From Mucilaginibacter rivuli (GTDB lineage: Bacteria; Bacteroidota; Bacteroidia; Sphingobacteriales; Sphingobacteriaceae): a DNA stretch of 64,000 bases. The DNA lies in contig NZ_JAHXPQ010000002.1 in NCBI RefSeq assembly GCF_019391655.1, positions 124,001-188,000 on the forward strand. Direction: 5' to 3'. Made by a program: the position numbers and the translations under genes. Below the pieces are notes generated by a model. That model made no database searches and had not been told where the DNA came from. It saw only the letters and a program-made list of their open reading frames with translations. Shown piece after piece: positions 38,133-58,178 of this stretch (positions within the stretch are counted from its first letter, which is position 1; every line of letters begins with the position of its first letter).

Positions 38133-38440
38133 ACTCAGTTTATGAATTGGTGTTCAATATACTAAAGGTATACAGGCTGGTTTAATTCGGCATCCTGTAG
38201 TGTGCGTATGCTACTACATTGTTACAAAAACATTGCGCAGCGGCATTGTGTAATTAATCTTTTACCTTGATGGGATATTTTTAAAAAATGCACCGCCATT
38301 TTAGCCAATAGCTAATATGATAAGATGCTACAATAGCATGTGAAAATGATACAGGGAATTATCCTCCACTTAAAATACATTTGTTTGGCTCGTTGTGCAG
38401 CCAAATTCGGATATTCACCAATGTATCCGAACCAATATCA
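38133..38440. other. Divergent promoter region between PL4 gene and RLP operon
   Basis: 308 bp without a gene. It contains two neighbouring dyads at 38301-38339 and a TACATTTG box (38376-38383) that fits the -7 consensus, about 57 bp before the RLP start. No matching TTTG -33 element is obvious. Confidence 0.5.
38301..38339. promoter_or_regulatory. Tandem dyads TTAGC-N5-GCTAA and ATGCTA-N3-TAGCAT
   Basis: Two perfect inverted repeats at 38301-38315 and 38325-38339 share the GCTA/TAGC half-site and lie between the divergent PL4 and RLP genes. A further half-site-like ATGCTACTACA lies near 38207. They are candidate operators for a shared regulator. Confidence 0.5.
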
Positions 38441-39688: not shown

Positions 39689-41073
39689 TGAACAAGCAGA
39701 ACCTGTTACTGGCCTACTACGGCGATGACTTCACCGGGTCGACAGACGCGCTGGAGTTTTTGAGCCGTGCCGGGATAAAAACTGTCCTCTTCATCGATGC
39801 GCCAACGCCCGGGCAACTATCCCGTTACCAGGGCCTGCAAGCCATCGGCGTAGCCGGGATGACACGTGCCATGCCGCCCGCCGAAATGGAAGCTGAGCTG
39901 CTTCCCGCTTTCGAAGCGGTGAAGCAATTAGGGGCACCACATGTGCACTATAAAGTATGCTCTACTTTCGATTCATCGCCAACTATTGGCAGTATCGGTA
40001 AAGCAGCGGATGTTGGCGCGAGCGTATTCAACGCACCATTCATACCGTTATTAGTGGCCGCTCCCGCATTAGGCAGGTATTGTGCTTTCGGAAACTTGTT
40101 TGCCCGTATGGGGATAGGCAGCACAGGTGAGATCTTTCGCCTCGATCGACACCCATCTATGAGCAAACACCCGGTAACGCCGGCTGATGAAAGCGACCTG
40201 CGCCTACACCTCTCAAAACAAACCACCAAAACAACCGGCCTGGTAGATGTTGCCGATCTTGAAAAAGGCGCTGATGTCGCGCAAGCAAAACTACAGTCCG
40301 AAATAGCCAAAGGCAACTCTGTTGTACTATTCGATGGCTTAAACGACGGGCATTTGCTAATCACCGCTAAGCTGATTGACACTTACGCTGACAGCGATAA
40401 ACCCTTATTCTCCATCGGTTCATCCGGCATCGAAATGGCCATGGGTTCGCTTTGGCAGGAGCAGGGTATCGCTCAACCAAAAGCAAACTGGCCTCATCCC
40501 GGCAAGGCAAAAAGCATGTTAGTTATATCCGGCAGTTGCTCCCCGGTAACGGCAAAACAAATAGCCTACGCGGCCGAGCACGATTTTGCCGAGATAAAAT
40601 TGGATACGCATGCAGTTGCCGTATCCGCGGATATAAACACCACTGTTGCCCCCTACATTCAACTCATCAGCGAACTGATGCAGCGCGGCATCCCCGTAAT
40701 ACTGCATACCAGCCTTGGTACTGCCGATCCGCGTTTCGCAAATACTTACCAGATCTTTAGTCAGCAGGGCTTATCTCAAAACGATATCCGTACCAAAACC
40801 GCGCAGCTATATGGTACCGCTTTGGGCATGATAGCCCTTGGCGTCGCTGCCAAATCAAACCTGCAACGCCTCATCATCGCCGGCGGCGATACCTCGGGTT
40901 TCGCCGCACGCGCCCTGGGCATCGAAGCTGTCGAAATGATAGCCCCGCTTTCACCCGGTGCACCACTTTGTAAAGCATACGCGCCGGGCTCAGCCGCTGA
41001 TGGCATCGAACTCAACTTTAAAGGCGGCCAGGTAGGCGCCGAAAACTATTTTGAAATGGTTCTAAACGGATAA
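39685..41073 (+). CDS. DUF1537 four-carbon acid sugar kinase family, OiaK-like
   Basis: 462 residues, starting in an ATGA overlap with the RLP stop. The N-terminal domain begins YYGDDFTGSTDALEFL (residues 11-26) and contains the conserved block HYKVCSTFDSSP (88-99). The C-terminal nucleotide-binding domain has GGDTSGFAARALG. DUF1537 kinases phosphorylate acid sugars (threonate, erythronate, 3-oxo-isoapionate). Fusion into an operon with an RLP points to 3-oxo-isoapionate kinase (OiaK), whose product is the RLP substrate. No ApsD, ApnL or ApnO homologue is in the window, so earlier steps of an apiose route would have to lie elsewhere. It is clearly longer than, and diverged from, the second DUF1537 protein at 49828. 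Confidence 0.85.
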   Translation: MMNKQNLLLAYYGDDFTGSTDALEFLSRAGIKTVLFIDAPTPGQLSRYQGLQAIGVAGMTRAMPPAEMEAELLPAFEAVKQLGAPHVHYKVCSTFDSSPTIGSIGKAADVGASVFNAPFIPLLVAAPALGRYCAFGNLFARMGIGSTGEIFRLDRHPSMSKHPVTPADESDLRLHLSKQTTKTTGLVDVADLEKGADVAQAKLQSEIAKGNSVVLFDGLNDGHLLITAKLIDTYADSDKPLFSIGSSGIEMAMGSLWQEQGIAQPKANWPHPGKAKSMLVISGSCSPVTAKQIAYAAEHDFAEIKLDTHAVAVSADINTTVAPYIQLISELMQRGIPVILHTSLGTADPRFANTYQIFSQQGLSQNDIRTKTAQLYGTALGMIALGVAAKSNLQRLIIAGGDTSGFAARALGIEAVEMIAPLSPGAPLCKAYAPGSAADGIELNFKGGQVGAENYFEMVLNG

Positions 41074-41085
41074 AACACATAAGCA

Positions 41086-41745
41086 ATGAAACAAAAAACA
41101 CTGGGCCTTATCCACACATCGGCCACCTTGATACCCGTATTTCAACAGCTTTGCAAAGACTATTTGCCGGGTGTAACTACCTTTAATATCGTTGACGATA
41201 GCATTGTCCGCAACATTCGCGAGCGTGGTGCTTTAACGCCCGAGATCAGCAAGCGCGTAGCTGATTACATCGCTTCCGCGGAAGATTCGGGTGCAGATTA
41301 CATCATGGTAACCTGCTCATCCATCGGCGCCGCCGTGGAGGCTGCTGCCGAACATACCGGCGTGCCTGTACTGCGTGTTGATCAGCCCATGGCCGATCTT
41401 GCTGTGCAAACGGGTAAACGCATTGGTGTTATCGCCACGTTGCAAACTACGCTTGGCCCAACCAGCGATCTGGTGCAACGCCGTGCTGCCTTGGCGGGAA
41501 AGGAGATCGAACTGACATCAAGAGTGGTTGACGGCGCTTTCGAAGCCCTCATGGCTGGCGATGCCGCTACTCACGATGCCTTGGTTGCCAATGCTTTGCG
41601 CGAATTATCAAAGAGCGTGGATGTGATATTGCTGGCACAGGCATCAATGGCACGTGTTGTTGATACCTTAAGTGAGGCTGATAAGATCGTCCCGATAGTG
41701 GCCAGTCCGCCTACGGCAATAAAACATTTAGCCTCCATTTTATAA
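41086..41745 (+). CDS. Asp/Glu/hydantoin racemase superfamily protein with one motif cysteine
   Basis: 219 residues. It has the two-domain racemase fold, with the first catalytic-type motif MVTCSSIG (Cys77). The second motif, normally containing Cys, reads ILLAQASMAR (about 181-190), so the second catalytic Cys is missing. Two-base racemization is therefore unlikely. A one-Cys isomerase or decarboxylase (compare maleate isomerase and arylmalonate decarboxylase, which share the fold) is possible. It follows the OiaK-like gene by 12 bp and precedes a BASS transporter by 1 bp, so it belongs to the RLP pathway. No such enzyme is part of the apionate routes I know of; its step is unassigned. Confidence 0.8.
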   Translation: MKQKTLGLIHTSATLIPVFQQLCKDYLPGVTTFNIVDDSIVRNIRERGALTPEISKRVADYIASAEDSGADYIMVTCSSIGAAVEAAAEHTGVPVLRVDQPMADLAVQTGKRIGVIATLQTTLGPTSDLVQRRAALAGKEIELTSRVVDGAFEALMAGDAATHDALVANALRELSKSVDVILLAQASMARVVDTLSEADKIVPIVASPPTAIKHLASIL

Positions 41746-41746
41746 T

Positions 41747-43033
41747 ATGAAAGCCTTGCAAAAGATATGCCTCGGCATAAGCACCATTTCGCTACTTTGT
41801 TTATTGGCAGGTGTGATAATGACTGCCGTTGTTAATATATGGCAGCCCGCCGCGGTTAGCCTTGCGGTTTCTTTTGCTATAGGTATTGGCGCTATACCCG
41901 CTTTAAAAAATTACCAGTATACCGCATGGATCATAGTTGCCGTGGTAGCGGCCATGATATACCCGCACGCTTTTTTAAAATGGGGAAGTGTAGATCTGCG
42001 TAATAAATGGCTCATACTTATTATCGTTCAGATGGTAATGTTTGGCATGGGTATCCAAATGAGCATCCGCGATTTTTCGGGCCTGGCAAGCACAGGTAAA
42101 GGTGTTTTAATAGGTTTGGCCTGTCACTTTTCGGTAATGCCGCTGATGGGTTTGTTATTAACCAAAATATTTCATTTTGAGCCCGAAATAGCTGCAGGCA
42201 TTATTCTTATCGGCTCGTGTTCAAGCGGCCTGGCATCAAACGTTATGGTGTATTTAGCGCGGGCTAACCTGGTTTTATCAGTAACTGTTACGGCTATGGC
42301 AACATTGGTTGCACCGTTCCTGACGCCTTTATTAATGCGCCTGTTGGCGGGTACACTTATTGAGGTGAAGTTTGTTGCCATGATGATGGAGATCATCAAG
42401 ATCGTTATTGTACCTATCGGCGCGGCCTTTCTGCACGATTATTTAAAACACGCCTCCCCGAAAGGGAAACGTAATGCTTACCTGATCACGGCGGCCTGTG
42501 TTATTTGGCTGGCATGCCAGTATTTGTTTTTGTGGGATATGATGAGCGCGATAATGTCGCCCGAAGCTGCACAATCATTAACGGTATTTAACTTTTTAAC
42601 GGGCGCTTTTATTACCGGCGCAGTTTATCACCAATTATATACCAGGTACACCAAAATTGACCAGTACATCCCATATTTATCCATGTTCGGCATTGTTTAT
42701 TTTACAACGGTAACCACCGCCGCCGGTCGTGATAATTTGATGCATGTGGGTGTATTGTTATTTTTAGCATCGGTAATACACAACGGAGCCGGGTACTTTT
42801 TTGGTTATTGGCTGAGCCGCTTGTTCAAGCTTGATAAAAACTCTGCCCGAACCATAGCTTTTGAGGTGGGCTTACAAAATGGGGGTATGGCATCGGGGCT
42901 GGCAGGTACCATGGGTAAATTATCAACCGTAGGTTTGGCTGCTGCCGTATTTAGCCCCTGGATGAATATCTCAGGCTCCATATTGGCTAATTACTGGAGA
43001 AAGCATCCTGTTAAAGATGAGCAAGCACAATAA
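41747..43033 (+). CDS. Bile acid:sodium symporter (BASS) family transporter
   Basis: 428 residues with about ten hydrophobic segments. The core BASS signatures are present: VMFGMGIQMSIRDFSG, the conserved GSCSSGLASNVMVYLARAN crossover region, and FEVGLQNGGMASGLAG near the C-terminus. The N-terminus has two extra helices (about residues 8-65) before the core, so it is longer than the classic about 320-residue form. BASS proteins move organic anions with sodium across the inner membrane. As the last gene of the RLP operon, it probably imports the acid sugar that the operon degrades, for example apionate. The substrate is inferred from context only. Confidence 0.88.
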   Translation: MKALQKICLGISTISLLCLLAGVIMTAVVNIWQPAAVSLAVSFAIGIGAIPALKNYQYTAWIIVAVVAAMIYPHAFLKWGSVDLRNKWLILIIVQMVMFGMGIQMSIRDFSGLASTGKGVLIGLACHFSVMPLMGLLLTKIFHFEPEIAAGIILIGSCSSGLASNVMVYLARANLVLSVTVTAMATLVAPFLTPLLMRLLAGTLIEVKFVAMMMEIIKIVIVPIGAAFLHDYLKHASPKGKRNAYLITAACVIWLACQYLFLWDMMSAIMSPEAAQSLTVFNFLTGAFITGAVYHQLYTRYTKIDQYIPYLSMFGIVYFTTVTTAAGRDNLMHVGVLLFLASVIHNGAGYFFGYWLSRLFKLDKNSARTIAFEVGLQNGGMASGLAGTMGKLSTVGLAAAVFSPWMNISGSILANYWRKHPVKDEQAQ

Positions 43034-45087: not shown

Positions 45088-46650
45088 ATGACTGATTTTT
45101 TACGTAAAGCGTGTATCGCCGTGATCTTATTTCTGATCACCGCCAACCTGTGCATCGCGCAATCGAAAAAGCAGCCTGTAGGTTTCGATAAGCTGAAGAA
45201 ATACGTCACCTATTTCAACTCCTTAGATACCGAAGCGGTAAAAAATTATATACCCAATGCCGAGGCTTATACCTGGCTCTCAAAAAACATCCCCTTGTTC
45301 GAGTGTCCCGATAAAACCATCGAGCAAATGTACTATTACCGCTGGTGGAGTTTCCGCAAGCACTTGGTGCAAACGCCAACGGGTTTTGTATTTACAGAGT
45401 TTATTACCCCGGTAAAATTCGCGGGTATATACAATACCATCAGCTCAGCCCTGGGCCACCAGGTTAACGAGGGCCGCTGGCTGCACGATCAAAAATACAT
45501 CCAGGACTATGTATCATTCTGGTTGTTTGAAGATGGCAAACAGGCCAAGCCACATTTTCACGGCTTTAGCAGTTGGGTTGATGATGCCGTTTACAGCAAC
45601 TATTTGGTTAATAAGGATAAGGCATTCATCCAAAAAGCACTGCCAGCTTTAGATGCCGATTACCGCCTCTGGGAAACAGAAAAACAACTGCCCAACCGCA
45701 TGTTCTGGCAATTTGATGTAAGGGATGCTATGGAAGAATCCATCAGCGGTTCCCGTAAGGATAAAAATATTCGCCCCACCATAAATAGCTACATGTATGG
45801 CAACGCCAAAGCGCTTGTCGCAATGGCAAAGCTTACAGGTAACGATACCCTGCAAACACGCTACGCCGCAAAGGCTGCCGACCTGAAACAACTGGTTCAG
45901 CAAAACCTGTGGAACAACGATGCTAACTTTTTCGAAGTAAAACTCACAACCGGCAAATTTTCGGATGCCCGCGAAGCCATAGGCTTTATCCCCTGGTATT
46001 TTAACCTGCCCGATGATAATGCCAAATACGCCGCGCAATGGGATCAGTTAATTGATACCACTGGCTTTAAAGCGCCATGGGGACTAACCACAGCCGAAAG
46101 GCGCCACCCAAAATTCCGTACACACGGCGTTGGTAAATGCGAGTGGGACGGTGCCGTATGGCCCTACGCTACCACGCAGGACCTGAAAGGCCTGGCTAAT
46201 CTGCTAACCAACTATACCAACAAAGGCAAAATGAGCGCGAAGGTGTTCTTCGACGATTTTAAACAATACGCATGGTCGCAGCAAATGAACGGGCACCCCT
46301 ACATAGGCGAGTACCAGGATGAAAAGAACGGCGCATGGCTTAAAGGCGATAACCCAAGGAGTACATTCTACAACCACTCAAGCTATGCAGATTTAGTAAT
46401 AAACGACCTGATAGGCTTAAAACCCCGCGCCGATGAAGTGCTCGAACTTTACCCCCTCATCCCGCAAGGGCAATGGGATTGGTTTTGTTTAGATAGCGTG
46501 ATCTACCACGGCCGCAATCTTACCGTGATATGGGATAAAACCGGTAAAAAATATAATAAAGGCAAAGGCCTGCTAATTTATGCTGATGGTAAAAAAATAG
46601 CCCAAAGCGAAGCCCTGAAGCATGTTTTAGCAAATCTGCCTGTTAAATAA
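45088..46650 (+). CDS. (alpha/alpha)6-barrel glycoside hydrolase, trehalase/MGH1-like
   Basis: 520 residues with a signal peptide (about 1-25, ending NLCIAQ). Aromatic and acidic segments typical of (alpha/alpha)6 glycosidases run along the chain: MYYYRWWSFRKHLV, EGRWLHDQKYIQDY, HGFSSWVDDAVYSNY, RMFWQFDVRDAMEESISG, ECEWDGAVWPYATT-like CEWDGAVWPYATTQ, and FYNHSSYADLVINDLIGL near the end. The pattern fits the mannosylglycerate hydrolase-like/trehalase clan, though the family number is not certain. It is the first gene of a >19-kb operon containing acid-sugar catabolism and pectin hydrolases. A side-chain exo-glycosidase role in rhamnogalacturonan breakdown is inferred. Confidence 0.75.
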   Translation: MTDFLRKACIAVILFLITANLCIAQSKKQPVGFDKLKKYVTYFNSLDTEAVKNYIPNAEAYTWLSKNIPLFECPDKTIEQMYYYRWWSFRKHLVQTPTGFVFTEFITPVKFAGIYNTISSALGHQVNEGRWLHDQKYIQDYVSFWLFEDGKQAKPHFHGFSSWVDDAVYSNYLVNKDKAFIQKALPALDADYRLWETEKQLPNRMFWQFDVRDAMEESISGSRKDKNIRPTINSYMYGNAKALVAMAKLTGNDTLQTRYAAKAADLKQLVQQNLWNNDANFFEVKLTTGKFSDAREAIGFIPWYFNLPDDNAKYAAQWDQLIDTTGFKAPWGLTTAERRHPKFRTHGVGKCEWDGAVWPYATTQDLKGLANLLTNYTNKGKMSAKVFFDDFKQYAWSQQMNGHPYIGEYQDEKNGAWLKGDNPRSTFYNHSSYADLVINDLIGLKPRADEVLELYPLIPQGQWDWFCLDSVIYHGRNLTVIWDKTGKKYNKGKGLLIYADGKKIAQSEALKHVLANLPVK

Positions 46651-46666
46651 AAATGAAAAATAATAA

Positions 46667-47821
46667 ATGAGTAACCTGCAAAATATAACCATTCACTTCC
46701 CCGGCAAACTAACATTTGGCAACGGGTGCATTGCAGCGTTATCGGATGACCTGTTGCGTTTAGGCAGCAAAAACGTTTTTATCGTTACCATAAAACCATT
46801 GCTGTTACAGCTAACATCGTTAATTGGTGATATCGAAAGCAAAGGTATTAAAGTACATATTGATACAAGTGTTGAGCAGGAACCTACATTTAAGGATTTT
46901 GAGCAACTCATGGCCATTGCCACGCAAGCCGAGCCCGATGCTGTGATAGGTATTGGGGGAGGCAGCGTGTTAGACGTAGCCAAACTGGTGGCTGCCCAAC
47001 TGAATAATACACAAGCGCTAAGCGAGATCGTAGGCATCGGCATGTTAAAGGGCCGTAGCACTACACTCATTTGCGCGCCTGCAACAGCGGGTACAGGCAG
47101 CGAGGTATCGCCAAATGCCATTTTGGTTGATGATGCCGACCATCAGAAAAAAGGGATCATCAGTCCGTTTTTAGTACCCGATATTGTTTACGTTGACCCG
47201 ATATTAACCATGAGCGTCCCCGGGGCAATAACTGCAGCTACAGGTTTAGATGCTTTGATCCATTGCATTGAGGCTTACACCAATAAATTTGCCCACCCAT
47301 TAATGGATATGTACGCCATTGAAGGTGTACGCTTAATAGGCGCCAACATTGTACAGGTAGTAAAAAATGGTAATAATGAGCATGCCCGCACACAGGTTGC
47401 CATGGGCAGTTTACTGGGCGGCTTTTGCCTTGGCCCGGTAAATACAGCCGCGGTGCACGCGCTTTCCTATCCTTTGGGTAGCAGTTTTAACCTGGCGCAT
47501 GGCTTGTCAAACGCGTTATTATTGCCTTACGTGATGGAGTATAATTACACTTCATCGCCACAAAAGTATGCTGAAGTAGCCATTGCTTTAGGCTGCGATC
47601 GCCGGGCCGATGACCTGCTTACCGCGAAGGCCGGTATCGAAAAAGTAAAACAACTGATCGAACAATGCGGCATACCCGCGCGGCTAAGGGATGTGCAGAT
47701 ACCATCATCTGCAATACCCGAAATGGCCGAAAACGCGATGAAAATTACCAGGCTGTTAAAGAATAACCCCCGCGAGGTAACGTATGCCGACGCGGTTGAA
47801 ATATTTAACGCGGCCTATTAA
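46667..47821 (+). CDS. Iron-type (group III) alcohol dehydrogenase, candidate C4 semialdehyde-acid reductase
   Basis: 384 residues, cytoplasmic. Nucleotide-binding motif GIGGGSVLDVAKL (95-107). All four metal ligands of the family are present: D195 and H199 in GLDALIHCIE, H264 in VNTAAVHALSYPLG and H278 in NLAHGLSNALL. The family oxidises alcohols or reduces aldehydes with NAD(P). It lies directly before a DapA-family lyase, PdxA2 and a DUF1537 kinase. The aldehyde released by that lyase from an acidic 2-keto-3-deoxy sugar would be a four-carbon semialdehyde acid, and reduction would give the threonate-type substrate of the kinase. Family assignment is firm; the reaction is inferred from operon logic. 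Confidence 0.9.
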   Translation: MSNLQNITIHFPGKLTFGNGCIAALSDDLLRLGSKNVFIVTIKPLLLQLTSLIGDIESKGIKVHIDTSVEQEPTFKDFEQLMAIATQAEPDAVIGIGGGSVLDVAKLVAAQLNNTQALSEIVGIGMLKGRSTTLICAPATAGTGSEVSPNAILVDDADHQKKGIISPFLVPDIVYVDPILTMSVPGAITAATGLDALIHCIEAYTNKFAHPLMDMYAIEGVRLIGANIVQVVKNGNNEHARTQVAMGSLLGGFCLGPVNTAAVHALSYPLGSSFNLAHGLSNALLLPYVMEYNYTSSPQKYAEVAIALGCDRRADDLLTAKAGIEKVKQLIEQCGIPARLRDVQIPSSAIPEMAENAMKITRLLKNNPREVTYADAVEIFNAAY

Positions 47822-47852
47822 ACTGAATAATACACACATTGAAATATATTGG

Positions 47853-48785
47853 ATGAAAAAGAAGTATAGTGGTATAATTATCCCAACCATAACACCACTC
47901 ACCGAAAGGTTTGAGTTGGATAAGGCCGGGGTAAAAAACATGTTTACCAACTTTAGGGCAAATGAGGTAAAGCCATTCATATTGGGCACTACGGGCGAAT
48001 CGGCTTCGTTACCTAACGACCTGAAACGCGATTATATCAAACTGGCGGGCGAACTAAAGCAGGGTACCGACCAGGTATACGTAGGCATTGCCTCAAACCG
48101 TTTCGAAGAATCGGTAGCATTGGCTAAGTATGCTTTTGATAACGGTGCCGATGCCGTAGCGGCGCATTTGCCGTACTACTATAAACTATCAGAATCGCAG
48201 ATAAAAACCTACTTTGAGCAATTGGCCGATAAATGCGGCGGGCCGCTTATTGTTTACAATATCCCGGCAACAACGCACATGTCATTACCCTTAAATTTGA
48301 TTAATGAGTTGAGCCAACACCCCAATATTGTTGGTGTAAAAGACTCCGAACAAAATGAGGACCGTGTGCGCGACTCGATCGAACTATGGAAAGAGCGCGA
48401 AGATTTTAGCTACTTTTTAGGATGGGCGGCACGCTCGGCCCTAGCCTTGTTAAACGGCAGCGATGGTTTGATACCAAGCTCGGGTAACCTTTTCCCGGGT
48501 ATCTATAATGATATGGCGCAGGCCGCCAAACTCAACAATGTTGAAGCGGTAAATGCACTGCAGCGCAAATCAGACCTGGTAGGTAAATTATACCAATCGG
48601 GCCGTTTATTGGGCGAATCGTTATGGGCGTTAAAAGTGCTGATGTTCAATTCGGGCATCTGCCAATCGCATGTAATGCCGCCGTTGCGCCCGCAATCTGC
48701 CGAAGAAGAAGCAAACCTGGCAAAAGGTTTATACGAATTAATGAAGAGCGAAGGCCTCGAAGTAAAAATTGATATATGCGATTAA
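47853..48785 (+). CDS. DapA/N-acetylneuraminate lyase family class I aldolase
   Basis: 310 residues from the ATG at 47853 (MKKKYSGIIIPTITP); an in-frame upstream codon overlaps the previous gene and adds no conserved sequence. The TIM barrel has the pyruvate-binding GTTGE (45-49), the catalytic Tyr135 in IVYNIPATT and the Schiff-base Lys163 in VGVKDSEQN. Members cleave or form bonds between pyruvate and an aldehyde, or dehydrate sugar acids. The next gene, pdxA2-like, overlaps by 10 bp. With reductase, kinase and PdxA2 around it, retro-aldol cleavage of Dha, a C7 diacid of RG-II, to pyruvate and a C4 aldehyde acid is the best-fitting role. Kdo cleavage is an alternative but would not feed the kinase/PdxA2 pair. 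Confidence 0.9.
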   Translation: MKKKYSGIIIPTITPLTERFELDKAGVKNMFTNFRANEVKPFILGTTGESASLPNDLKRDYIKLAGELKQGTDQVYVGIASNRFEESVALAKYAFDNGADAVAAHLPYYYKLSESQIKTYFEQLADKCGGPLIVYNIPATTHMSLPLNLINELSQHPNIVGVKDSEQNEDRVRDSIELWKEREDFSYFLGWAARSALALLNGSDGLIPSSGNLFPGIYNDMAQAAKLNNVEAVNALQRKSDLVGKLYQSGRLLGESLWALKVLMFNSGICQSHVMPPLRPQSAEEEANLAKGLYELMKSEGLEVKIDICD

Positions 48786-49828
48786 AACCTATTATTGCCA
48801 TTACCATGGGCGACCCGGCAAGTATTGGCCCCGAGATCGCGCTGAAATCGTTATTAGATAAAACTTTATATGATATCTGCCAGCCCTTACTGGTTGGCGA
48901 TTTTGATGTGTTCGAACAGATCAGGAATATACTCAACATCGATATCGCGATAAACAAAATATCAGCGGTAAGCCAGGCCAAATTTGAATACGGAACCATA
49001 GATGTATTCGATCTGGCTAATACCGATGTATCACAACTTAAGTTTGGTGAGATATCTGCCAACTGCGGCGAAGCTGCTTTTCAATCTGTTAAAAAAGTAA
49101 TTGAATTGGCTTTGGCAGGAGAGGTGGATGCTACCGTAACGGGCCCCATCAACAAAAAATCGATAAACGAAGCCGGGCACCATTATGCCGGGCATACCGA
49201 AATATACGCGCATTATACCGGCACAAAAAAATACGCCATGTTATTGGTGGAAGACCATATCAAGGTGATCCACGTATCAACCCACGTATCCTTGCGCCAG
49301 GCCTGCGACCTCGTAAAAACCGACCGTATACTCGAAGTAACCGAACTATTGCATAACGGCATGATCAGCCTGGGCGAAACCAACCTGAAAATTGGCATCG
49401 CGGGCCTTAATCCGCACGCTGGTGATTCGGGCCTGTTTGGTACCGAAGATGACCTGGAAATATTGCCCGCTGTCGAAGAAGCACGCCGCCGGGGTTATGA
49501 TGTAGAAGGCCCGGTGCCCCCCGATACCATGTTTGCCAAAGCCGCGACAGGTTATTACGGCGGCGTGGTAGCCATGTATCATGATCAGGGACATATCCCG
49601 TTCAAGCTTGCGGGCTTTAAATGGAATGCCGAAAAAGGGCAAATGGATAGTGTTAAAGGTGTAAATATTACCATGGGCCTGCCCATCATCCGTACCTCGG
49701 TTGATCATGGTACAGCCTTTGAAATAGCAGGTAAAGGTATTGCCAGTTGCGATGCCATGACGCTGGCTATCCAATCTGCCGTGCAGTTACATAAACACCA
49801 GTCTGTTGCTAAAACTGTTGCCATATAA
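48776..49828 (+). CDS. pdxA2: PdxA2-like 4-phospho-threonate dehydrogenase (decarboxylating)
   Basis: 350 residues. PdxA family motifs: MGDPASIGPEI (11-21), TGPINKKSI and HYAGHTE (136-142). The three metal ligands are H170 (STHVSLR), H214 (NPHAGDSG) and H269 (MYHDQGH), at the spacing of E. coli PdxA. In vitamin B6 synthesis PdxA oxidises 4-phosphohydroxy-threonine. Beside a DUF1537 kinase the PdxA2 subgroup oxidises D-threonate 4-phosphate, which then loses CO2 to give DHAP. The kinase gene starts within the stop codon of this gene. No other B6 biosynthesis gene is near, which supports the catabolic role. Confidence 0.9.
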   Translation: MRLKPIIAITMGDPASIGPEIALKSLLDKTLYDICQPLLVGDFDVFEQIRNILNIDIAINKISAVSQAKFEYGTIDVFDLANTDVSQLKFGEISANCGEAAFQSVKKVIELALAGEVDATVTGPINKKSINEAGHHYAGHTEIYAHYTGTKKYAMLLVEDHIKVIHVSTHVSLRQACDLVKTDRILEVTELLHNGMISLGETNLKIGIAGLNPHAGDSGLFGTEDDLEILPAVEEARRRGYDVEGPVPPDTMFAKAATGYYGGVVAMYHDQGHIPFKLAGFKWNAEKGQMDSVKGVNITMGLPIIRTSVDHGTAFEIAGKGIASCDAMTLAIQSAVQLHKHQSVAKTVAI

Positions 49829-50985
49829 TGATGGTGGTTGTTGCGGATGATTTAACGGGTGCTGCAGAAATAGGCGGCATCGGCATCCGTTACAACCTGG
49901 ATGTGGAGCTGAACACGCACGTTAACCGGCAATCAAAAGCCGATCTGCTGGTAATATCAACAGATACGCGTTCCATGTCGAAATCCGACGCCATCCTGGA
50001 AACAGGTAAGGTAATGGATGATGTGATCAAGCTTTACCCAACGCTGGTATATAAAAAAACAGATTCTGTTTTGCGTGGTTACGTTGCCGAAGAACTGCAT
50101 GTCCAAATGCAAAAGCTAAACGTAAAACGTGCGTTTTTCATCCCCGCGAACCCGCATTTAGGCAGAACTGTTGTTGATGGCGAATACTTGATAAGCGGCG
50201 AACCATTGCACCAAACTGCATTTGCCAACGACCCTGAATTTCCTGCCAAAACATCATCGGTAACAGCCTTACTTTCTGATAAGGGTGTAAATATCCATTC
50301 GCGAAAGCATACGGATACTGTGCCGGGCGAGGGGATTATAGTAGGGGATGCCGCCAACTCGGATGACCTGCAAACCTGGGCTGCATTAGCGGGTAACGAT
50401 ATGGCCTTGGCCGGGGCATCAGGTTTTTTTAGTGCTTTGTTAGATAAAACAGCTTTTTCGGTTAAGCAAACAACAAAACCACGCCAATTTCAAACGCCTG
50501 TGCTCATTGTATCGGGTACAGCGTTCAACAAAAGTGCCGATGCCATACAACAGCTAAAACTTGACGGACAGCCCGTTAGTTATATGCCCGCCGACATAGC
50601 GCAGGCAGAAACCTACAACGCCAAAAGATACCTCGATTGGTGCCTTGAAATTGCAGGCTATATCACTACATTTGGCAAAGCCATTATAGCCATTAATCCT
50701 GCGGATACCGTGGGCATAACAAACCAGGCAGCTTTGCTTAGAGATAAAACTGCTATCATCGTCAGTATGGTTTTTAAACAAACCCCTATTAATGAATTGC
50801 TGATAGAAGGCGGTTCAACCGCTTCGGCAGTGCTGAAGCATTTAGGTATTTCAAAACTTTACCCTGCCGAAGAATTATCGCCCGGCGTAGTAAGGATGAA
50901 AGCTAGTGATTCTGATCTGTACATAACCATAAAACCCGGCAGCTATACCTGGCCCGAAACCTTAAAACAACATACATTATACTAA
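49828..50985 (+). CDS. DUF1537 acid-sugar kinase, D-threonate kinase (DtnK)-like
   Basis: 385 residues, starting in a TAATG overlap with pdxA2. The N-terminal motif VVADDLTGAAEIGG (4-17) and VYKKTDSVLRG (74-84) are typical of DUF1537 kinases; the nucleotide-binding domain contains LIEGGSTASAVLKHLG. It would phosphorylate the 4-OH of a threonate-type acid to give the PdxA2 substrate. Compared with the OiaK-like kinase at 39685 it is about 75 residues shorter and has a different substrate-domain motif, suggesting different substrates. The next gene is an SSS symporter 4 bp downstream. Confidence 0.88.
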   Translation: MMVVVADDLTGAAEIGGIGIRYNLDVELNTHVNRQSKADLLVISTDTRSMSKSDAILETGKVMDDVIKLYPTLVYKKTDSVLRGYVAEELHVQMQKLNVKRAFFIPANPHLGRTVVDGEYLISGEPLHQTAFANDPEFPAKTSSVTALLSDKGVNIHSRKHTDTVPGEGIIVGDAANSDDLQTWAALAGNDMALAGASGFFSALLDKTAFSVKQTTKPRQFQTPVLIVSGTAFNKSADAIQQLKLDGQPVSYMPADIAQAETYNAKRYLDWCLEIAGYITTFGKAIIAINPADTVGITNQAALLRDKTAIIVSMVFKQTPINELLIEGGSTASAVLKHLGISKLYPAEELSPGVVRMKASDSDLYITIKPGSYTWPETLKQHTLY

Positions 50986-50989
50986 CCCG

Positions 50990-52570
50990 ATGCAAACCCA
51001 AACTCTACATATTATTGATTACGTTATTATCGTCGCCGCGCTGATAACATCACTTAGCATAGGCCTCTGGTTTGGTAAGGGGCAAAACAGCACGCAAAAA
51101 TATTTTGTATCAAAAGGGAGTATACCGCCGTGGGCCATCAGCATGAGCTTAATGGCAACACTCATCAGCAGTGTTACCTTTTTGGCGTACCCCGGCGAGG
51201 GCTTTTCATCAAACTGGATCTTACTGGTGCAAGGCTTAATGGTGCCGGTTGTACTGCTTTTTATGGCCTGGTTTATTGTACCGCTCTACCGCAGGGTTAT
51301 CGGCATCAGCGCTTATGAATACTTTGAAAAGCGTTTTGGTGTATTCGCGCGCATGTATAGCTCTATAGCCTTTGTACTCACGCACTTCTCCAAAATGGGG
51401 ACTGTTTTCTTCCTGCTCGCGTTAGCGTTATCTAACATGACAGGCGTTAACACCTTCCTCATCATCTGGATCATCGCCATCGTGGTTATTGTGATCACAC
51501 TTGTAGGCGGTATCGAGGCTGTTATCTGGGCCGATGTGGTTCAGGGTTTTTTATTGATCGCGGGCGGCGTGGTATCGTTAATATTGATTCTTTGCTCGGT
51601 AAAAGGCGGCCCTGCCGAGATATGGCATATTGCCCAATCCAACGGCCATACCGGTTTTGGCCCATACGATTTCAATTTCAAAAAGCTCACGTTTATCGTT
51701 ATGGCTATCAACGGCGTGTTTTACGCCATTCAAAAATACGGTACCGATCAAACCATGGTGCAGCGCTATTTAACTGCCGATAGCGATAAAAAAGCCATTA
51801 AAGCATCCATTATGGGTGTAGCGTTAACTGTTCCTTTATGGATTATGTTTATGTTCATCGGCACCGCGTTATTCGTTTTCTATACACAAAACCCATTACC
51901 TGCAGGCACACGTCCGGATGCGGTGTTCCCGTATTTTATCATGACTAACTTGCCGCAAGGTGTAGTAGGGTTGATCCTGGCGGCATTAATTTCAGCAGCC
52001 ATATCAAGTTTAGGCTCCGATCTTAACTGCCTTGCCGCCGTAGGCGTGGTTGATTTTTACAAACGCTTACGCCCCGGCCGCACCGATCTGCAAAACCTGA
52101 ATGCCGGCCGCTGGATCGTGGTTTTTGGTGGTTTAGGTGCCGTTGGTATCGCGTCGTTATACCTGTTAGCAGGCGATGAAGGTGTTTTGGGTATTGTATT
52201 TACCCTGTATTCCATCTTTTCAGGCGGCATCGCGGGTATATTCCTGCTGGGATTATTCAGCGCGAGGGCAAACAAGCAAGGCCTGTTCATTGGCATCATG
52301 GCCTGTGTGTTGTTTACGGCCTATGCTTTCTTATCCTCAACTAAAATAGGTTTAGGTAAAGATAAGCACGTGTTAATTGATATGGGGGTTTGGGGTTTTA
52401 AACAGCATAAGTACATGCTGGGCGTATACAGCCATTTAATTGTTATTGGTGTAGGATATGTGGCAAGTTTATTCTTCCCGAAACCAAACCTCAACAAAAA
52501 CCTGCTTTACAGCGGATGGCTGGAAAAACGCAGGAATCCCGTTAAGGAAACAGAAGTTAGAAACGGATAA
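50990..52570 (+). CDS. Sodium/solute symporter (SSS) family transporter
   Basis: 526 residues with about 13 transmembrane helices starting at residue 9. SSS family features include ISMSLMATLISSVTFLAYPGEGF, the GGIEAVIWADVVQGF block after helix 5, and AALISAAISSLGSDLNCLAAV in helix 8, where sodium-ligand Ser residues lie. Many family members carry sugars, sialic acid or other acid sugars with sodium. Its place directly after the kinase in the aldolase/PdxA2 module suggests that it imports the acid sugar degraded there. A hydrolase gene follows after 8 bp. Confidence 0.93.
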   Translation: MQTQTLHIIDYVIIVAALITSLSIGLWFGKGQNSTQKYFVSKGSIPPWAISMSLMATLISSVTFLAYPGEGFSSNWILLVQGLMVPVVLLFMAWFIVPLYRRVIGISAYEYFEKRFGVFARMYSSIAFVLTHFSKMGTVFFLLALALSNMTGVNTFLIIWIIAIVVIVITLVGGIEAVIWADVVQGFLLIAGGVVSLILILCSVKGGPAEIWHIAQSNGHTGFGPYDFNFKKLTFIVMAINGVFYAIQKYGTDQTMVQRYLTADSDKKAIKASIMGVALTVPLWIMFMFIGTALFVFYTQNPLPAGTRPDAVFPYFIMTNLPQGVVGLILAALISAAISSLGSDLNCLAAVGVVDFYKRLRPGRTDLQNLNAGRWIVVFGGLGAVGIASLYLLAGDEGVLGIVFTLYSIFSGGIAGIFLLGLFSARANKQGLFIGIMACVLFTAYAFLSSTKIGLGKDKHVLIDMGVWGFKQHKYMLGVYSHLIVIGVGYVASLFFPKPNLNKNLLYSGWLEKRRNPVKETEVRNG

Positions 52571-52578
52571 CAAAAGAT

Positions 52579-55350
52579 ATGATGAAGGCGTCGGTTAAAA
52601 TACAATTGATTATTGCAGGGCTGTTTTGTTTTTTTAATGGTTTTGCAAATACGGCTGCACCACAACAAATAATTACCGTTGTTACGCCGCTAAAAGCCAA
52701 TGTGCGTGTTGATTTTGGTGCGAAAAAATTAACAACGGCCTTAACTTCAATTGGCTATAAAGTCAATACATCACATCAAAATACTACACCCACGTCCGGA
52801 AAAGTTATTGTAATTGGTATAACCGGGGATGCCTTACTCATCAAAGCCATTTCCGCCTGGCACATGCCGATGAAAAAGATCGCTTTTGTAAAAGAAGGCT
52901 TTTTCATCAGCACTTCGTCGCAAAAAAATATCATTGTCCAGGGCCTTGATAATTCAGGGGCATTATACGGCTGTATCGAACTTGCTGATCAAATTAAAGC
53001 CACCGGTAAATTACCCGAAACCATCAACGTTTCCGATCACCCCGAAATGGTACTGCGCGGCGCATGTATCGGTTTGCAAAAGTCGACTTATCTGCCTGGT
53101 CGCGGGGTGTATGAGTACCCATACACCGAAGCTACTTTCCCTTGGTTTTACGATAAGCAGCTTTGGATAAAGTACCTTGACCAAATGGTGGAGAACCGCA
53201 TGAACTCCCTTTACCTGTGGAACGGCCACCCATTCGCTTCGCTGGTAAAGCTGAAGGAGTACCCTTACGCTATAGAGGTTGACGATGCCACTTTTAAAAA
53301 GAACGAAGAGATCTACCGGTTCCTCACCGAGGAAGCCGACAAGCGCGGTATCTGGGTGATACAGATGTTTTACAACATCATGGTATCAAAACCCTTCGCC
53401 GAATATAACCATATCAAAACACAGGATCGTAACCGCCCTATTATTCCACTAATTTCGGATTATACCCGCAAGTCTATCGCTGCTTTCGTAGAGAAGTACC
53501 CCAACGTTGGCCTCATGGTCTGCCTTGGAGAGGCTATGGAGGGCGTTGGTCAGGATGATGTGGATTGGTTTACCAAAACCATAATCCCCGGCGTTAAGGA
53601 TGGTTTGAAAGCTTTAGGCAAAACCGATGAACCGCCAATCGTGCTCCGTGCCCACGACACCGACGCGCCCATGGTGATGAAATACGCCCTGCCGCTTTAC
53701 AAAAACCTGTACACCGAAGCCAAGTACAATGGCGAAGCACTAACCACCTATACCCCACACGGCCCCTGGGCTGATCTGCACCGCACACTGAGCCACTTAG
53801 GCAGCGTGCAGATAGAGAACATCCATATCATGGCTAACCTGGAGCCCTTTCGCTATGGCTCTGCTGATTTTATACAGAAATGCGTACTTGCCATGCACAA
53901 TGTTTACGGATCTAATGGACTGCACATTTACCCGCAGGCCTCTTATTGGGATTGGCCGTACTCTGCCGATAATGCCGGTACAAACCGTCTGCTGCAAACC
54001 GACCGCGACTGGATCTGGTACAAAGAATGGGCGCGCTACTCCTGGAACTGTCACCGCGACCGCGAGCAGGAAAAAACCTATTGGGATAAACAACTGGCTG
54101 AAAAGTACGGTACCGACACCAAACACGGCGCCGATATTTTAGAAGCCTACGAGCAAAGCGGCGAAATAGCGCCCAAGTTATTACGCCGGTTTGGTATTAC
54201 CGATGGTAACCGCCAAACCTTAACGCTGGGTATGTTTATGAGTCAGTTGGTTAACCCCGAAAGGTATGGCTTGTTCACGCTGTTGTACAACTCCGAAGGG
54301 CCGGAAGGGGAGATGCTCTCCGAATATGCCAAGCGCGAATGGAAGCACCAGCCACACATTGGCGAAACCCCGGTAAACGTGATAAATGATGTAATAGCCC
54401 ACGGCAAAGCGGCTGTTGCAGCTATAGAGGCTGCAAGCCCTGCCATAAAAGCCGACAAAGCTGAGTTCACCCGTTTAAAGAATGATATGTACTGCTACAA
54501 TGAACTGGCAGATTTTTATGCTGATAAAGCCAATGCGGCTTTGCTGGTATTGAAATACAAATACTCCAACAATATCGCCGATCTGCAGGCGGCTATCCCA
54601 TATCTTAAAAGCAGCGTAACACACTTCCAAAAACTGTCCGATCTCACCAAAAACACTTACCTGTATGCCAACAGCATGCAAACATCACAACGTAAAATAC
54701 CCATTGGCGGTAACGATGGTAAGATGAAAACCTGGGTGGAACTGCTACCGAAATACGAAGCTGAACTAAAAACATTTACCCACAATGTCGATTCGTTAAA
54801 ACAACACCAAGGCGAACCGTCGGTAGATAAAAATCCGCCGTTAAATCCGGTAAACGTTACTTGGCATTCAAAAACTGAAGGCATATATTCATTCCCGAAA
54901 GGTGAATCAGTTTACAGCGATACGACGCTAAAAACTAGTGTTTACGATGATGTTTTGAAAAACCTGCAAGGCGTCCGCTTATCCCAAAAGGAACAAATAG
55001 CTAAAGGTACCACGCTTAAATTCACTACTGATAAACCGGTAAAGCTCTTGGTGGGTTTCTTTAAAGAAAAAGGCAAAAACTATTCGCCCGAACCAACTCT
55101 GGAGAACGATGCCAGCGCCAACGATTATAACCAGGCCGAAATAAAAATTGGCAACGCCATTGTATTTGCTGATATGCCACCGGTTAACATCCACGCCTAT
55201 TCTTTCGCGGCGGGTACACATACCCTAACTTTGGCTAAAGGCGAATGCCTGGTATTAGGCTTTGTTGATGGTAATGCCACTATCCCGGTTTACGATGCCG
55301 CGATGCATAAAGGTGGAGCAAATAAAAAAATTGACGCGCTGTTTCAATAA
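52579..55350 (+). CDS. Large secreted glycosidase with GH67/GH20-like N-domain and TIM barrel
   Basis: 923 residues with a signal peptide (about 1-25). An N-terminal alpha/beta domain (about 30-150, GKVIVIGITGDALLIKA then SGALYGCIELADQI) resembles the domain preceding the barrel in GH20 and GH67 enzymes. The barrel follows (about 155-480: MVLRGACIGLQKS, WIKYLDQMVENRMNSLYLWNGHPF, GLMVCLGEAMEGVGQ, IVLRAHDTDAPM, LHIYPQASYWDWPYS), then a helical region (about 500-740) and a C-terminal beta-sandwich. Acidic candidates are E in LGEAMEG and D in RAHDTDAP. An alpha-uronidase role fits a pectin locus, but no family number can be given with confidence. It heads the hydrolase half of the operon. Confidence 0.7.
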   Translation: MMKASVKIQLIIAGLFCFFNGFANTAAPQQIITVVTPLKANVRVDFGAKKLTTALTSIGYKVNTSHQNTTPTSGKVIVIGITGDALLIKAISAWHMPMKKIAFVKEGFFISTSSQKNIIVQGLDNSGALYGCIELADQIKATGKLPETINVSDHPEMVLRGACIGLQKSTYLPGRGVYEYPYTEATFPWFYDKQLWIKYLDQMVENRMNSLYLWNGHPFASLVKLKEYPYAIEVDDATFKKNEEIYRFLTEEADKRGIWVIQMFYNIMVSKPFAEYNHIKTQDRNRPIIPLISDYTRKSIAAFVEKYPNVGLMVCLGEAMEGVGQDDVDWFTKTIIPGVKDGLKALGKTDEPPIVLRAHDTDAPMVMKYALPLYKNLYTEAKYNGEALTTYTPHGPWADLHRTLSHLGSVQIENIHIMANLEPFRYGSADFIQKCVLAMHNVYGSNGLHIYPQASYWDWPYSADNAGTNRLLQTDRDWIWYKEWARYSWNCHRDREQEKTYWDKQLAEKYGTDTKHGADILEAYEQSGEIAPKLLRRFGITDGNRQTLTLGMFMSQLVNPERYGLFTLLYNSEGPEGEMLSEYAKREWKHQPHIGETPVNVINDVIAHGKAAVAAIEAASPAIKADKAEFTRLKNDMYCYNELADFYADKANAALLVLKYKYSNNIADLQAAIPYLKSSVTHFQKLSDLTKNTYLYANSMQTSQRKIPIGGNDGKMKTWVELLPKYEAELKTFTHNVDSLKQHQGEPSVDKNPPLNPVNVTWHSKTEGIYSFPKGESVYSDTTLKTSVYDDVLKNLQGVRLSQKEQIAKGTTLKFTTDKPVKLLVGFFKEKGKNYSPEPTLENDASANDYNQAEIKIGNAIVFADMPPVNIHAYSFAAGTHTLTLAKGECLVLGFVDGNATIPVYDAAMHKGGANKKIDALFQ

Positions 55351-55358
55351 ATTAAACT

Positions 55359-58178
55359 ATGAAAAAATTATCGGCTATATGTTTGGCGGTTTTCCTTTCG
55401 GGGACGTTCATATCCGCGCAGGCGCAGCAAAAACCGTTAAAATTATGGTACGATAAACCCGCCGAAAAATGGACGGACGCCCTACCCATTGGCAATGGCA
55501 GCCTCGGCGCCATGATATACGGCGGCGCAGCCAGCGACCATATCCAATTCAATGAGCAAACCCTGTGGACAGGCAGCCCCCGCAAATACCAGCGCGACGG
55601 CGCGGCAAACTACCTCCCCAAAATACGTCAACTCCTATTTGACGGCAAACAAGCCGAGGCCGAAGTTTTAGCGGGTAAATATTTTTTGGGAACTAAAGAC
55701 CATGAACTGACCTACAGTGCGGATTCACTCGCATGGGTTAAGAAGATGCTTTTAATAAAAACTCCCGCTGAAGAAAAATTTAATGACGCCAATTGGAAGG
55801 CCATCAACTTACCCACCGAACAAGGCTGGGAAAAGACAGACGGTTTTGATGGTGTAGACGGCGCGGTTTGGTTCAGGACTACTTTTGATAAGCCTGCCAA
55901 CTGGACAGGCGACGTTGTTTTGAATCTTGGCCGTATTCGTGATGCAGATATTACCTACGTAAATGGAAAGAAAGTCGGCGAGACAAGCGGTACCACTTAT
56001 CGCAAATACATCATACCAGCTTCGCAAATGCATGCGGGCTTAAATACCATTGCTGTACAGGTTTTTAATTTTAATGACAAGGGGGGCTTTACCAGTAACC
56101 CTAAGGAACTGAACTTAATACAGTTGATCAGCGATAAAAACGTGCCGATCAGTCTTGCACATGGCTGGAAATATTGGATACAGGATACCAACCCGCCCGT
56201 CTTCCCATCTTACGAAGCATCTTATCAACCTTTCGGCGACCTGTTTTTAAACTTCGCCAATAAAGGCGAGGTAAGCAATTACAAACGCTCACTCGATGTA
56301 AAAACCGCTGTTGCCAATGTAAGCTACACGCAAAACGGCGTGAATTTTACACGAGAGTATATTTCGAGCTCGTCCGATAAAGCCATCGCGATACACCTGA
56401 AAGCAGACAAGGCCGGGCAGATCAACTTCGATGCTTTATTCGCATCGCTGCATAAAATGTCTGCTATAAAACAGGTTGACGGAAATACGATCAGGTTAAC
56501 GGTGCAGGTGAGCGGCGGCGCTTTAAAAGGGACAGCCTATTTGTATGCCGATGTGAAAAACGGCAAAGTAAGTGTAGCTAAAGGGCGGTTGCATATTGCT
56601 GATGCCGACGAAGCAACGTTATATCTTGTAGCCGCTACCAATTTCAAAAACTACAAAGATGTTTCCGGCGATCCCGATGCCATCTGCAAGCAACGCCTTC
56701 AAAACATTAAAACAAAAACCTACACGCAAATTGCAAAAGCGCACATCGCCGATTACCAGCGTTACTTCAATAAATTCAACGTCGATTTGGGCTCAGGCAA
56801 AAACGAAAGCCTGCCGACCGATGAGCGCATCAGGCTATACAATCCGACTGACGACCCCAGCCTGCTGTCGCTGTACATGCAATACGCGCGTTACCTGCTC
56901 ATCTCCTGTTCCCGTCCCGACAGTCAATTACCCGCCAACCTGCAAGGCATCTGGAACGATCAGATTACGCCGCCATGGGGCAGCAAGTACACCACCAACA
57001 TCAACCTGCAGATGAACTATTGGTCTGCAGAGCAATTGAACCTGACCGATTTGAATAAACCCTTATTCAGCATGATTAGCCAATTATCGCAGGCAGGTAA
57101 GGCAACCGCAAAAATACACTATAATGCACCGGGTTGGGTACTGCACCATAATACCGATATCTGGTTAGGTACTGCGCCTATCAATGCCTCGAACCATGGC
57201 ATCTGGCAAACAGGCGGGGCATGGCTTTGTCGCCATTTATGGGAGCATTACCTGTTCACGCAGGATAAAGCCTTCCTGCAAAAGGCTTACCCCGAAATGA
57301 AAGGCGCGGCTGAGTTTTTTGTGAGCACTTTGGTGAAAGATCCTAAAACAGGTTATCTCATCAGCACCCCATCCAACTCGCCCGAGCACGGTGGTTTGGT
57401 TGCCGGGCCTACAATGGATCGTCAAATTATCCGCGACCTGTTTAAAAACTGTATCGCGGCATCGCAGGTATTGCATATTGATGAAGCATTTAGAAAAGTT
57501 CTTGAAGAAAAATATAAACAGATAGCCCCCAATCAGATTGGCAAATACGGCCAGCTACAGGAGTGGATGGAAGATAAGGATGATACCGCCGATACCCACC
57601 GCCACGTTTCGCACCTGTGGGGCGTTTTCCCGGGCACGGATATTACATGGGACGGTACGCCAACCATGATGCACGCTGCTGAAAAGAGTTTTCAATACCG
57701 TGGCGATGATGGCACCGGCTGGAGCCTGGCCTGGAAAGTAAACCTGATGGCGCGCTTTAAACATGGTGATCATGCCATGCTGTTAGTGAATAAACTACTT
57801 TCCGTTGCCGAAAACGGCTCAGCCAAAGAACGCGGCGGCGTTTACCATAACCTGTTCGATGCCCACCCGCCATTCCAGATAGACGGTAACTTTGGCGGCG
57901 CGGCGGGCATTGCCGAAATGCTGGTTCAAAGCCAGGCCGGCTATATCGAATTGTTACCCGCATTACCAACAGCCTTACCAAACGGCGAATTAAAAGGCAT
58001 CTGTACCCGCGGCGGTTTCGTGTTGAATCTGGTTTGGAAAGACGGTAAGTTGACATCATTGGATGTAATATCCAAAACGGGCAATACTTGCACCATTAAA
58101 TACAACGGCCTGGTCCAAAACTTCAAAACCATAAAAGGCAAAGTATACCATTTTGATGCTAACCTGAAAGCGATATAA
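55359..58178 (+). CDS. GH95 alpha-L-fucosidase/alpha-L-galactosidase with inserted jelly-roll domain
   Basis: 939 residues with a signal peptide (about 1-22). The GH95 N-terminal domain begins KLWYDKPAEKWTDALPIGNGSLGAMI (28-53). It is interrupted at about 111-285 by a GH2-type sugar-binding jelly roll (NWKAINLPTEQGW, WFRTTFDKPANWTGDVVLNLG, NGKKVG). The GH95 sequence resumes at YQPFGDLFLNF. The (alpha/alpha)6 catalytic domain holds QLPANLQGIWNDQITPPWGSKY with the family Asn/Asp residues, HHNTDIWLGTAP and HVSHLWGVFPG. GH95 enzymes release terminal alpha-L-fucose or, in RG-II degraders, alpha-L-galactose. Genes are 8 bp and 5 bp from their neighbours, so it is in the operon core. Confidence 0.9.
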   Translation: MKKLSAICLAVFLSGTFISAQAQQKPLKLWYDKPAEKWTDALPIGNGSLGAMIYGGAASDHIQFNEQTLWTGSPRKYQRDGAANYLPKIRQLLFDGKQAEAEVLAGKYFLGTKDHELTYSADSLAWVKKMLLIKTPAEEKFNDANWKAINLPTEQGWEKTDGFDGVDGAVWFRTTFDKPANWTGDVVLNLGRIRDADITYVNGKKVGETSGTTYRKYIIPASQMHAGLNTIAVQVFNFNDKGGFTSNPKELNLIQLISDKNVPISLAHGWKYWIQDTNPPVFPSYEASYQPFGDLFLNFANKGEVSNYKRSLDVKTAVANVSYTQNGVNFTREYISSSSDKAIAIHLKADKAGQINFDALFASLHKMSAIKQVDGNTIRLTVQVSGGALKGTAYLYADVKNGKVSVAKGRLHIADADEATLYLVAATNFKNYKDVSGDPDAICKQRLQNIKTKTYTQIAKAHIADYQRYFNKFNVDLGSGKNESLPTDERIRLYNPTDDPSLLSLYMQYARYLLISCSRPDSQLPANLQGIWNDQITPPWGSKYTTNINLQMNYWSAEQLNLTDLNKPLFSMISQLSQAGKATAKIHYNAPGWVLHHNTDIWLGTAPINASNHGIWQTGGAWLCRHLWEHYLFTQDKAFLQKAYPEMKGAAEFFVSTLVKDPKTGYLISTPSNSPEHGGLVAGPTMDRQIIRDLFKNCIAASQVLHIDEAFRKVLEEKYKQIAPNQIGKYGQLQEWMEDKDDTADTHRHVSHLWGVFPGTDITWDGTPTMMHAAEKSFQYRGDDGTGWSLAWKVNLMARFKHGDHAMLLVNKLLSVAENGSAKERGGVYHNLFDAHPPFQIDGNFGGAAGIAEMLVQSQAGYIELLPALPTALPNGELKGICTRGGFVLNLVWKDGKLTSLDVISKTGNTCTIKYNGLVQNFKTIKGKVYHFDANLKAI

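Follow-up and report, generated by a model that had tools for sequence, protein, structure and literature searches.

Rhamnogalacturonan II (RG-II), a plant pectin, has a very complex structure; gut-bacterial enzymes that dismantle it have been described. Among its constituents is 3-deoxy-D-lyxo-2-heptulosaric acid (Dha), a rare seven-carbon acid sugar that, to our knowledge, is confined to RG-II in plants. The polymer carries two ulosonic acids, Dha and 3-deoxy-D-manno-oct-2-ulosonic acid (Kdo) (PMC12168206); at the side-chain ends, Dha lies under arabinofuranose in side chain D and Kdo under rhamnose in side chain C (PMC12282258). As for enzymes acting on related acids, DUF1537 kinases include a D-threonate kinase (Zhang 2016, as cited in a passage of PMC10971088), PdxA2 functions in organic acid catabolism (PMC9997740), and dihydroxyacetone phosphate (DHAP) is the entry point of related L-threonate routes (PMC12540250). 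Here, we analysed a five-gene module in a 64,000-nucleotide window of the Mucilaginibacter rivuli genome (positions 124001–188000 of contig C7, in genome coordinates), which is likely to be a catabolic module for Dha from RG-II, its best-supported substrate. An earlier note on this DNA knew of no described Dha catabolic operon, and the literature searched, a limited set covering few subscription papers, likewise contained none, nor any Dha catabolic route or fate of released Dha; the enzyme families are known, but the assembled pathway was not found there.

The module consists of the following genes (window coordinates):

46667–47821, + strand: Fe-type (group III) alcohol dehydrogenase (FeADH; PF00465/PF25137)
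47853–48785 (longest open reading frame from 47784), + strand: DapA/NAL-superfamily class I aldolase (PF00701)
48776–49828, + strand: PdxA2-type dehydrogenase (PF04166, 340 bits)
49828–50985, + strand: DUF1537 four-carbon acid sugar kinase (PF07005 and PF17042)
50990–52570, + strand: SSS-family Na+/solute symporter (PF00474; TIGR00813 above cut-off)

Domain searches bore out the positions, the common + strand and the families that the earlier note had assigned to these packed genes (46667–52570). The residues it had singled out, namely the FeADH ligands D195, H199, H264 and H278, H170, H214 and H269 of PdxA2, and Tyr135 and Lys163 of the aldolase, are all present and conserved across homologues. 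The aldolase numbering runs from the shorter start at 47853 (310 aa), which is probably the correct one rather than 47784.

Using PdxA2 as the query and one genome per species, we obtained 184 relatives and retained 80 Bacteroidota loci for comparison. Gene order and strand were repeated in most of them, with median intergenic gaps of 6, −4, 5 and 23 bp along the module. FeADH and DapA were each found in 78 of the 80 loci by tblastn, which also recovered the DapA gene of one locus (L015) that had appeared to lack it in the clustering; DUF1537 was present in nearly all loci and SSS, as the fifth gene, in most. Identity among carriers was 74–83% for PdxA2 and just 31–51% for the DUF1537 kinase. 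The module is shared in conserved order by many soil- and plant-associated Bacteroidota, with carriers including Mucilaginibacter, Pedobacter, Sphingobacterium, Larkinella, Spirosoma, Niastella, Chitinophaga, Flectobacillus and Pontibacter. At two loci (L028 and L059), PdxA2 and DUF1537 occurred without FeADH or DapA, which accompanied PdxA2 at all other loci; this pair resembles a self-contained D-threonate unit, and at L028 an MFS transporter follows it. Three genomes from a single other family carry divergent modules (L098, L100 and L101; PdxA2 54–62% identical), and GH143 is missing from two of these genomes (G074 and G176); at L098 and L101 a sulfatase-type gene lies directly 5′ of the module. 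Prasinophyte algal scales have been reported to contain Dha, and in the divergent-module genomes Dha may derive from a polysaccharide other than RG-II.

In the proposed pathway, GH143 would release Dha from RG-II side chain D outside the cytoplasm, and the SSS symporter would carry it across the inner membrane. The DapA-type aldolase would then cleave the C3–C4 bond of Dha, giving pyruvate plus an aldehyde acid of four carbons (2,3-dihydroxy-4-oxobutanoate). FeADH, using NAD(P)H, would reduce this aldehyde acid to D-threonate. The DUF1537 kinase, if it has the matching stereospecificity, would convert D-threonate to D-threonate 4-phosphate, and PdxA2 would oxidise and decarboxylate the latter to DHAP and CO2 while regenerating reduced cofactor for FeADH. 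The net reaction, Dha + ATP → pyruvate + DHAP + CO2 + ADP, would be roughly redox-neutral. The stereochemical derivation behind this scheme, already part of the earlier note, proved correct when we repeated it: in Fischer projection, the D-lyxo configuration places C4 left, C5 left and C6 right, retro-aldol cleavage at C3–C4 yields pyruvate and OHC(C4)–C5(left)–C6(right)–COOH, and once C4 is reduced and the molecule turned carboxylate-up, the hydroxyls stand left at C2 and right at C3, the configuration of D-threonate. As this is the acid handled by DUF1537 and PdxA2 together, the derivation supports Dha. Stereochemistry and the GH143 linkage described below thus both support the note's pathway from Dha to pyruvate, DHAP and CO2; that Dha is the exact substrate we infer, since other RG-II enzymes co-occur as well.

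As a proxy for GH143, we used the profile PF24067 above its cut-off (‘BT_1020-like, N-terminal beta propeller’), which we take to cover the N-terminal part of BT_1020, reportedly a GH143 Dha hydrolase. The genome-neighbourhood search with RG-II enzymes that had been suggested earlier was strongly positive. In a linkage set of 66 genomes reached via homologous loci, all 64 with FeADH, DapA and PdxA2 had GH143, against 0/2 of those with PdxA2 and DUF1537 only (L028, whose 2.2 Mb assembly is possibly incomplete, and L059). The background was far lower: 21/345 genomes phylum-wide, 18 of the 85 among these that belong to the class of the source organism, and 16/83 non-module genomes of that class. 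Across 50 cases, with a shared contig deduced from the coordinates, GH143 lay within 60 kb of the module locus in 45 (median 12.6 kb). Module-type PdxA2, defined as >490 bits in the phylum-wide sample, occurred in five of the sampled genomes, three with GH143 and two (G074 and G176) without. Conversely, genomes G080, G138, G222, G150, G166, G269 and G286 carry GH143 and a sialidase-like gene (see below) without module-type PdxA2; such genomes may free Dha yet lack this route for its catabolism, or may rely on a different one.

FeADH has the D-H-H-H metal ligands of group III and scores under every NCBIfam equivalog cut-off; its nearest solved structures are 1,3-propanediol and lactaldehyde dehydrogenases. 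The aldolase belongs to the DapA/NAL superfamily, with the Schiff-base Lys163, Tyr135 and Thr46–Thr47 invariant in 78 homologues, and its AlphaFold model (predicted local distance difference test, pLDDT, 92.5) is a TIM barrel closest to 4xky (Z 38.5), NAL 5c54 and YagE. Because NAL, YagE and DapA structures match about equally (Z 36–38.5), the fold does not reveal the substrate. The sites aligned to the YagE Asp-Asp and 4xky Glu-Glu pairs are occupied by Ala, Gly, Ser, Ile, Leu or Val in all 78 module aldolases, and such small uncharged residues would be compatible with, although not proof of, a negatively charged substrate tail.

The module PdxA belongs to the PdxA superfamily by its PF04166 score and its conserved metal-binding His triad. 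Its closest solved relatives are 4jqp, 2hi1 (PdxA2; 280 bits) and 6e85 (D-threonate 4-phosphate dehydrogenase; 271 bits), with structures of PdxA from the pyridoxal-phosphate pathway at ≤181 bits; judged by these scores, it is nearer to PdxA2 than to the latter. It missed the cut-off of the NCBIfam equivalog PRK03371 (321 against 583 bits) and therefore represents a PdxA2-like subfamily outside that equivalog. A second PdxA, 35% identical, is encoded elsewhere in the genome (C1:676631), so that the module PdxA2 is an extra paralogue and not the sole candidate for vitamin B6 synthesis. PdxA2 carries, immediately behind its HDQGHIPFKL motif, a conserved insert, WNAEKxQMDSVK (residues 283–294, window 49622–49657), which is absent from two aligned solved relatives and found also in stand-alone PdxA2 copies; it is a possible marker of the subfamily. 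The DUF1537 kinase has both of its domains, and its best NCBIfam model is D-threonate kinase (NF047819), far under the cut-off (123 against 450 bits). We propose it as a predicted D-threonate kinase (O4), an assignment resting on context.

The module sits within a pectin-hydrolase operon, as the earlier note had recognised, with galacturonidase, GH95, GH2 and glucuronoyl-esterase-type genes downstream:

45088–46650, + strand: MGH1-like glycoside hydrolase, directly upstream of the module (PF22422)
52579–55350, + strand: alpha-D-galacturonidase, downstream operon gene (NF049878, 1514 bits against a cut-off of 1300)
55359–58178, + strand: GH95 glycoside hydrolase (PF22124)
58184–61882, + strand: GH2 with malectin domain (PF02836/PF00703/PF11721)
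61879–63123, + strand: glucuronoyl-esterase-like protein (PF22244)

On C7, the RG-II locus runs downstream to about 250 kb. It encodes GH143 (C7:214725–216569; PF24067, 412 bits) about 38–39 kb downstream of the module, along with a PF13204 apiosidase, GH78, a sialidase-like protein, an esterase, an isomerase, GH141, GH106 and GH127. With GH143, the apiosidase and further side-chain enzymes, including GH95 and GH2, it qualifies as an RG-II utilisation locus. Across the 80 loci, recurrent neighbours of the module were GH78 alpha-L-rhamnosidase, the PF13088 sialidase-like protein, an alpha/beta-hydrolase-type esterase, a sugar isomerase-like protein and GH141; GH2, GH28-like and GH127 proteins, also recurrent, were identified directly from sequence or via relatives in the source genome. 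In 39 other loci, the module has the sialidase-like gene on one side and the esterase on the other. In the source genome, 3 bp separate these two genes; the module occupies another part of this RG-II locus, about 50 kb upstream of them. The module is conserved and tied to RG-II degradation. In addition, the window contains, 3.6 kb upstream of the module (38381–43033), genes for a RuBisCO-like protein, whose best NCBIfam match is OiaX (521 bits, under the cut-off of 700), a second DUF1537 kinase, an Asp/Glu racemase-family protein and an SBF-family transporter. These genes form a candidate apionate/isoapionate module, probably serving RG-II apiose.

Two further elements of the source genome bear on the choice between Dha and Kdo:

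L085:15704–16834 (C7:223704–224834): sialidase-like gene (PF13088)
L084:6669–9205 (C7:194669–197202): second SSS symporter (SSS2) and second DapA-family aldolase (DapA2)

The sialidase-like protein (BNR_2) has a predicted GH33-type fold (pLDDT 86.8); across RG-II loci its gene lies beside a GH78 rhamnosidase gene or, in seven loci (L018, L022, L066, L068, L070, L072 and L080), is fused to it. This fusion suggests the Rha–Kdo linkage as target, in an arrangement parallel to that of BT_1020, which pairs GH143 with the arabinofuranosidase GH142. From the model and the fusion, the protein is a candidate for the enzyme that releases Kdo from side chain C of RG-II. We dropped a role as Dha hydrolase when GH143 turned up as a separate gene in these loci and the GH78 fusion came to light, which made Kdo the likelier substrate. 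BT_1020 was not among the matches listed for the family profile against the PDB, which decides nothing. In several loci (L004, L011, L018 and L022), the SSS2–DapA2 pair separates the sialidase-like gene from the module, and L008 is likewise listed with an SSS2 and DapA-family pair; SSS2 is a candidate importer of Kdo and DapA2 a candidate Kdo aldolase. The simplest reading that this suggests is that Kdo goes to the SSS2–DapA2 pair and Dha to the five-gene module. We lean towards a dedicated Dha pathway next to an adjacent Kdo pathway (GH78-linked sialidase-like hydrolase, SSS2 and DapA2), with both acids released and consumed by neighbouring gene sets that occur jointly in Bacteroidota.

That the module itself degrades Kdo, its aldolase yielding pyruvate and D-arabinose and the other genes acting on arabinose-derived acids, appears improbable. 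The sialidase-like gene, sometimes GH78-fused, does lie upstream of the module in 49/80 loci, mostly directly adjoining it. However, cleavage of Kdo would give a neutral C5 sugar and leave no role for a C4 acid kinase and PdxA2, and several genomes have the separate SSS2–DapA2 pair. Since the sialidase-like gene is nearly as universal as GH143, we used it for this choice only through G031, a divergent carrier with the module and GH143 (∼7 kb beyond SSS) in which a close relative of the sialidase-like gene was not found; this combination favours Dha over Kdo. We give equally little credence to a D-threonate/D-erythronate pathway placed beside an unrelated aldolase and reductase, for example for the conversion of 2-keto-3-deoxy-L-fuconate or -rhamnonate to pyruvate and lactaldehyde. 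FeADH and DapA are closely packed with PdxA2 in every locus other than L028 and L059, their presence tracks GH143 (64/64 against 0/2), and neither a sugar-acid dehydratase nor a deoxysugar dehydrogenase was conspicuous among the genes recurring nearby. These two exceptions, L028 with its MFS transporter, would suit such a separation, as would the lactaldehyde and 1,3-propanediol dehydrogenases that are the nearest named relatives of FeADH. Slightly less probable still is a module serving another RG-II constituent, such as aceric acid or apiose-derived acids, or a related keto-deoxy aldarate. The RG-II linkage in general and the nearby RuBisCO-like/DUF1537 genes resembling apionate catabolism point in that direction, but the latter already form a separate candidate module in the window; apionate routes reportedly use RuBisCO-like enzymes, not DapA and PdxA2, and a retro-aldol cleavage to a C4 acid needs a C7 keto-deoxy aldarate, of which Dha is the one known in RG-II.

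Several observations weigh against the assignment to Dha. The kinase and the dehydrogenase fall under all equivalog cut-offs, and the very small p-values of Fisher tests of the module against GH143 ignore shared ancestry. GH143 is missing from G074 and G176, which carry a divergent module in full or in large part, and many GH143 genomes, for example G080, G138 and G222, lack the module. At L059, PdxA2 and DUF1537 adjoin the proposed Kdo-type SSS2 and DapA2. Finally, GH143 and the sialidase-like gene track the module almost equally in Bacteroidota, so that the linkage points to RG-II and not to Dha alone.

As a Dha pathway, the module would be a complete route with a sharp prediction, D-threonate as an intermediate, and would assign functions to four genes so far named by family only. 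It would also offer a marker for bacteria that consume Dha, as opposed to merely releasing it, and could supply enzymes to make or measure Dha.

Compared with described systems, the module has GH143 and other RG-II enzymes in common with RG-II degradation in Bacteroides thetaiotaomicron (BT_1020, GH143/GH142), whereas module-type PdxA2 was not seen in genomes like G222 that carry GH143. The apionate pathways (OiaK/OiaX) also employ a DUF1537 kinase, for a branched RG-II sugar acid, but are not known to use an aldolase, Fe-type alcohol dehydrogenase or PdxA2, and the candidate module of this type in the window (38381–43033) is separate from the five genes. With the sialic acid, Kdo and 2-keto-3-deoxygluconate (KDG) aldolases NanA and YagE, the module aldolase shares the class I Schiff-base fold and catalytic residues; it differs in the small residues at the YagE/4xky Asp/Glu pair and in being linked to steps on C4 acids, not on amino sugars or hexoses. 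Like the D-threonate pathway (DtnK and PdxA2), the module has an adjacent DUF1537 kinase and PdxA2-type dehydrogenase, with DHAP and CO2 as the expected products. Unlike that pathway, its PdxA2 subfamily bears the conserved insert beside the HDQGH motif, and the module adds an SSS symporter, the linkage to RG-II, and an aldolase and FeADH for the proposed conversion of a C7 ulosaric acid to D-threonate.

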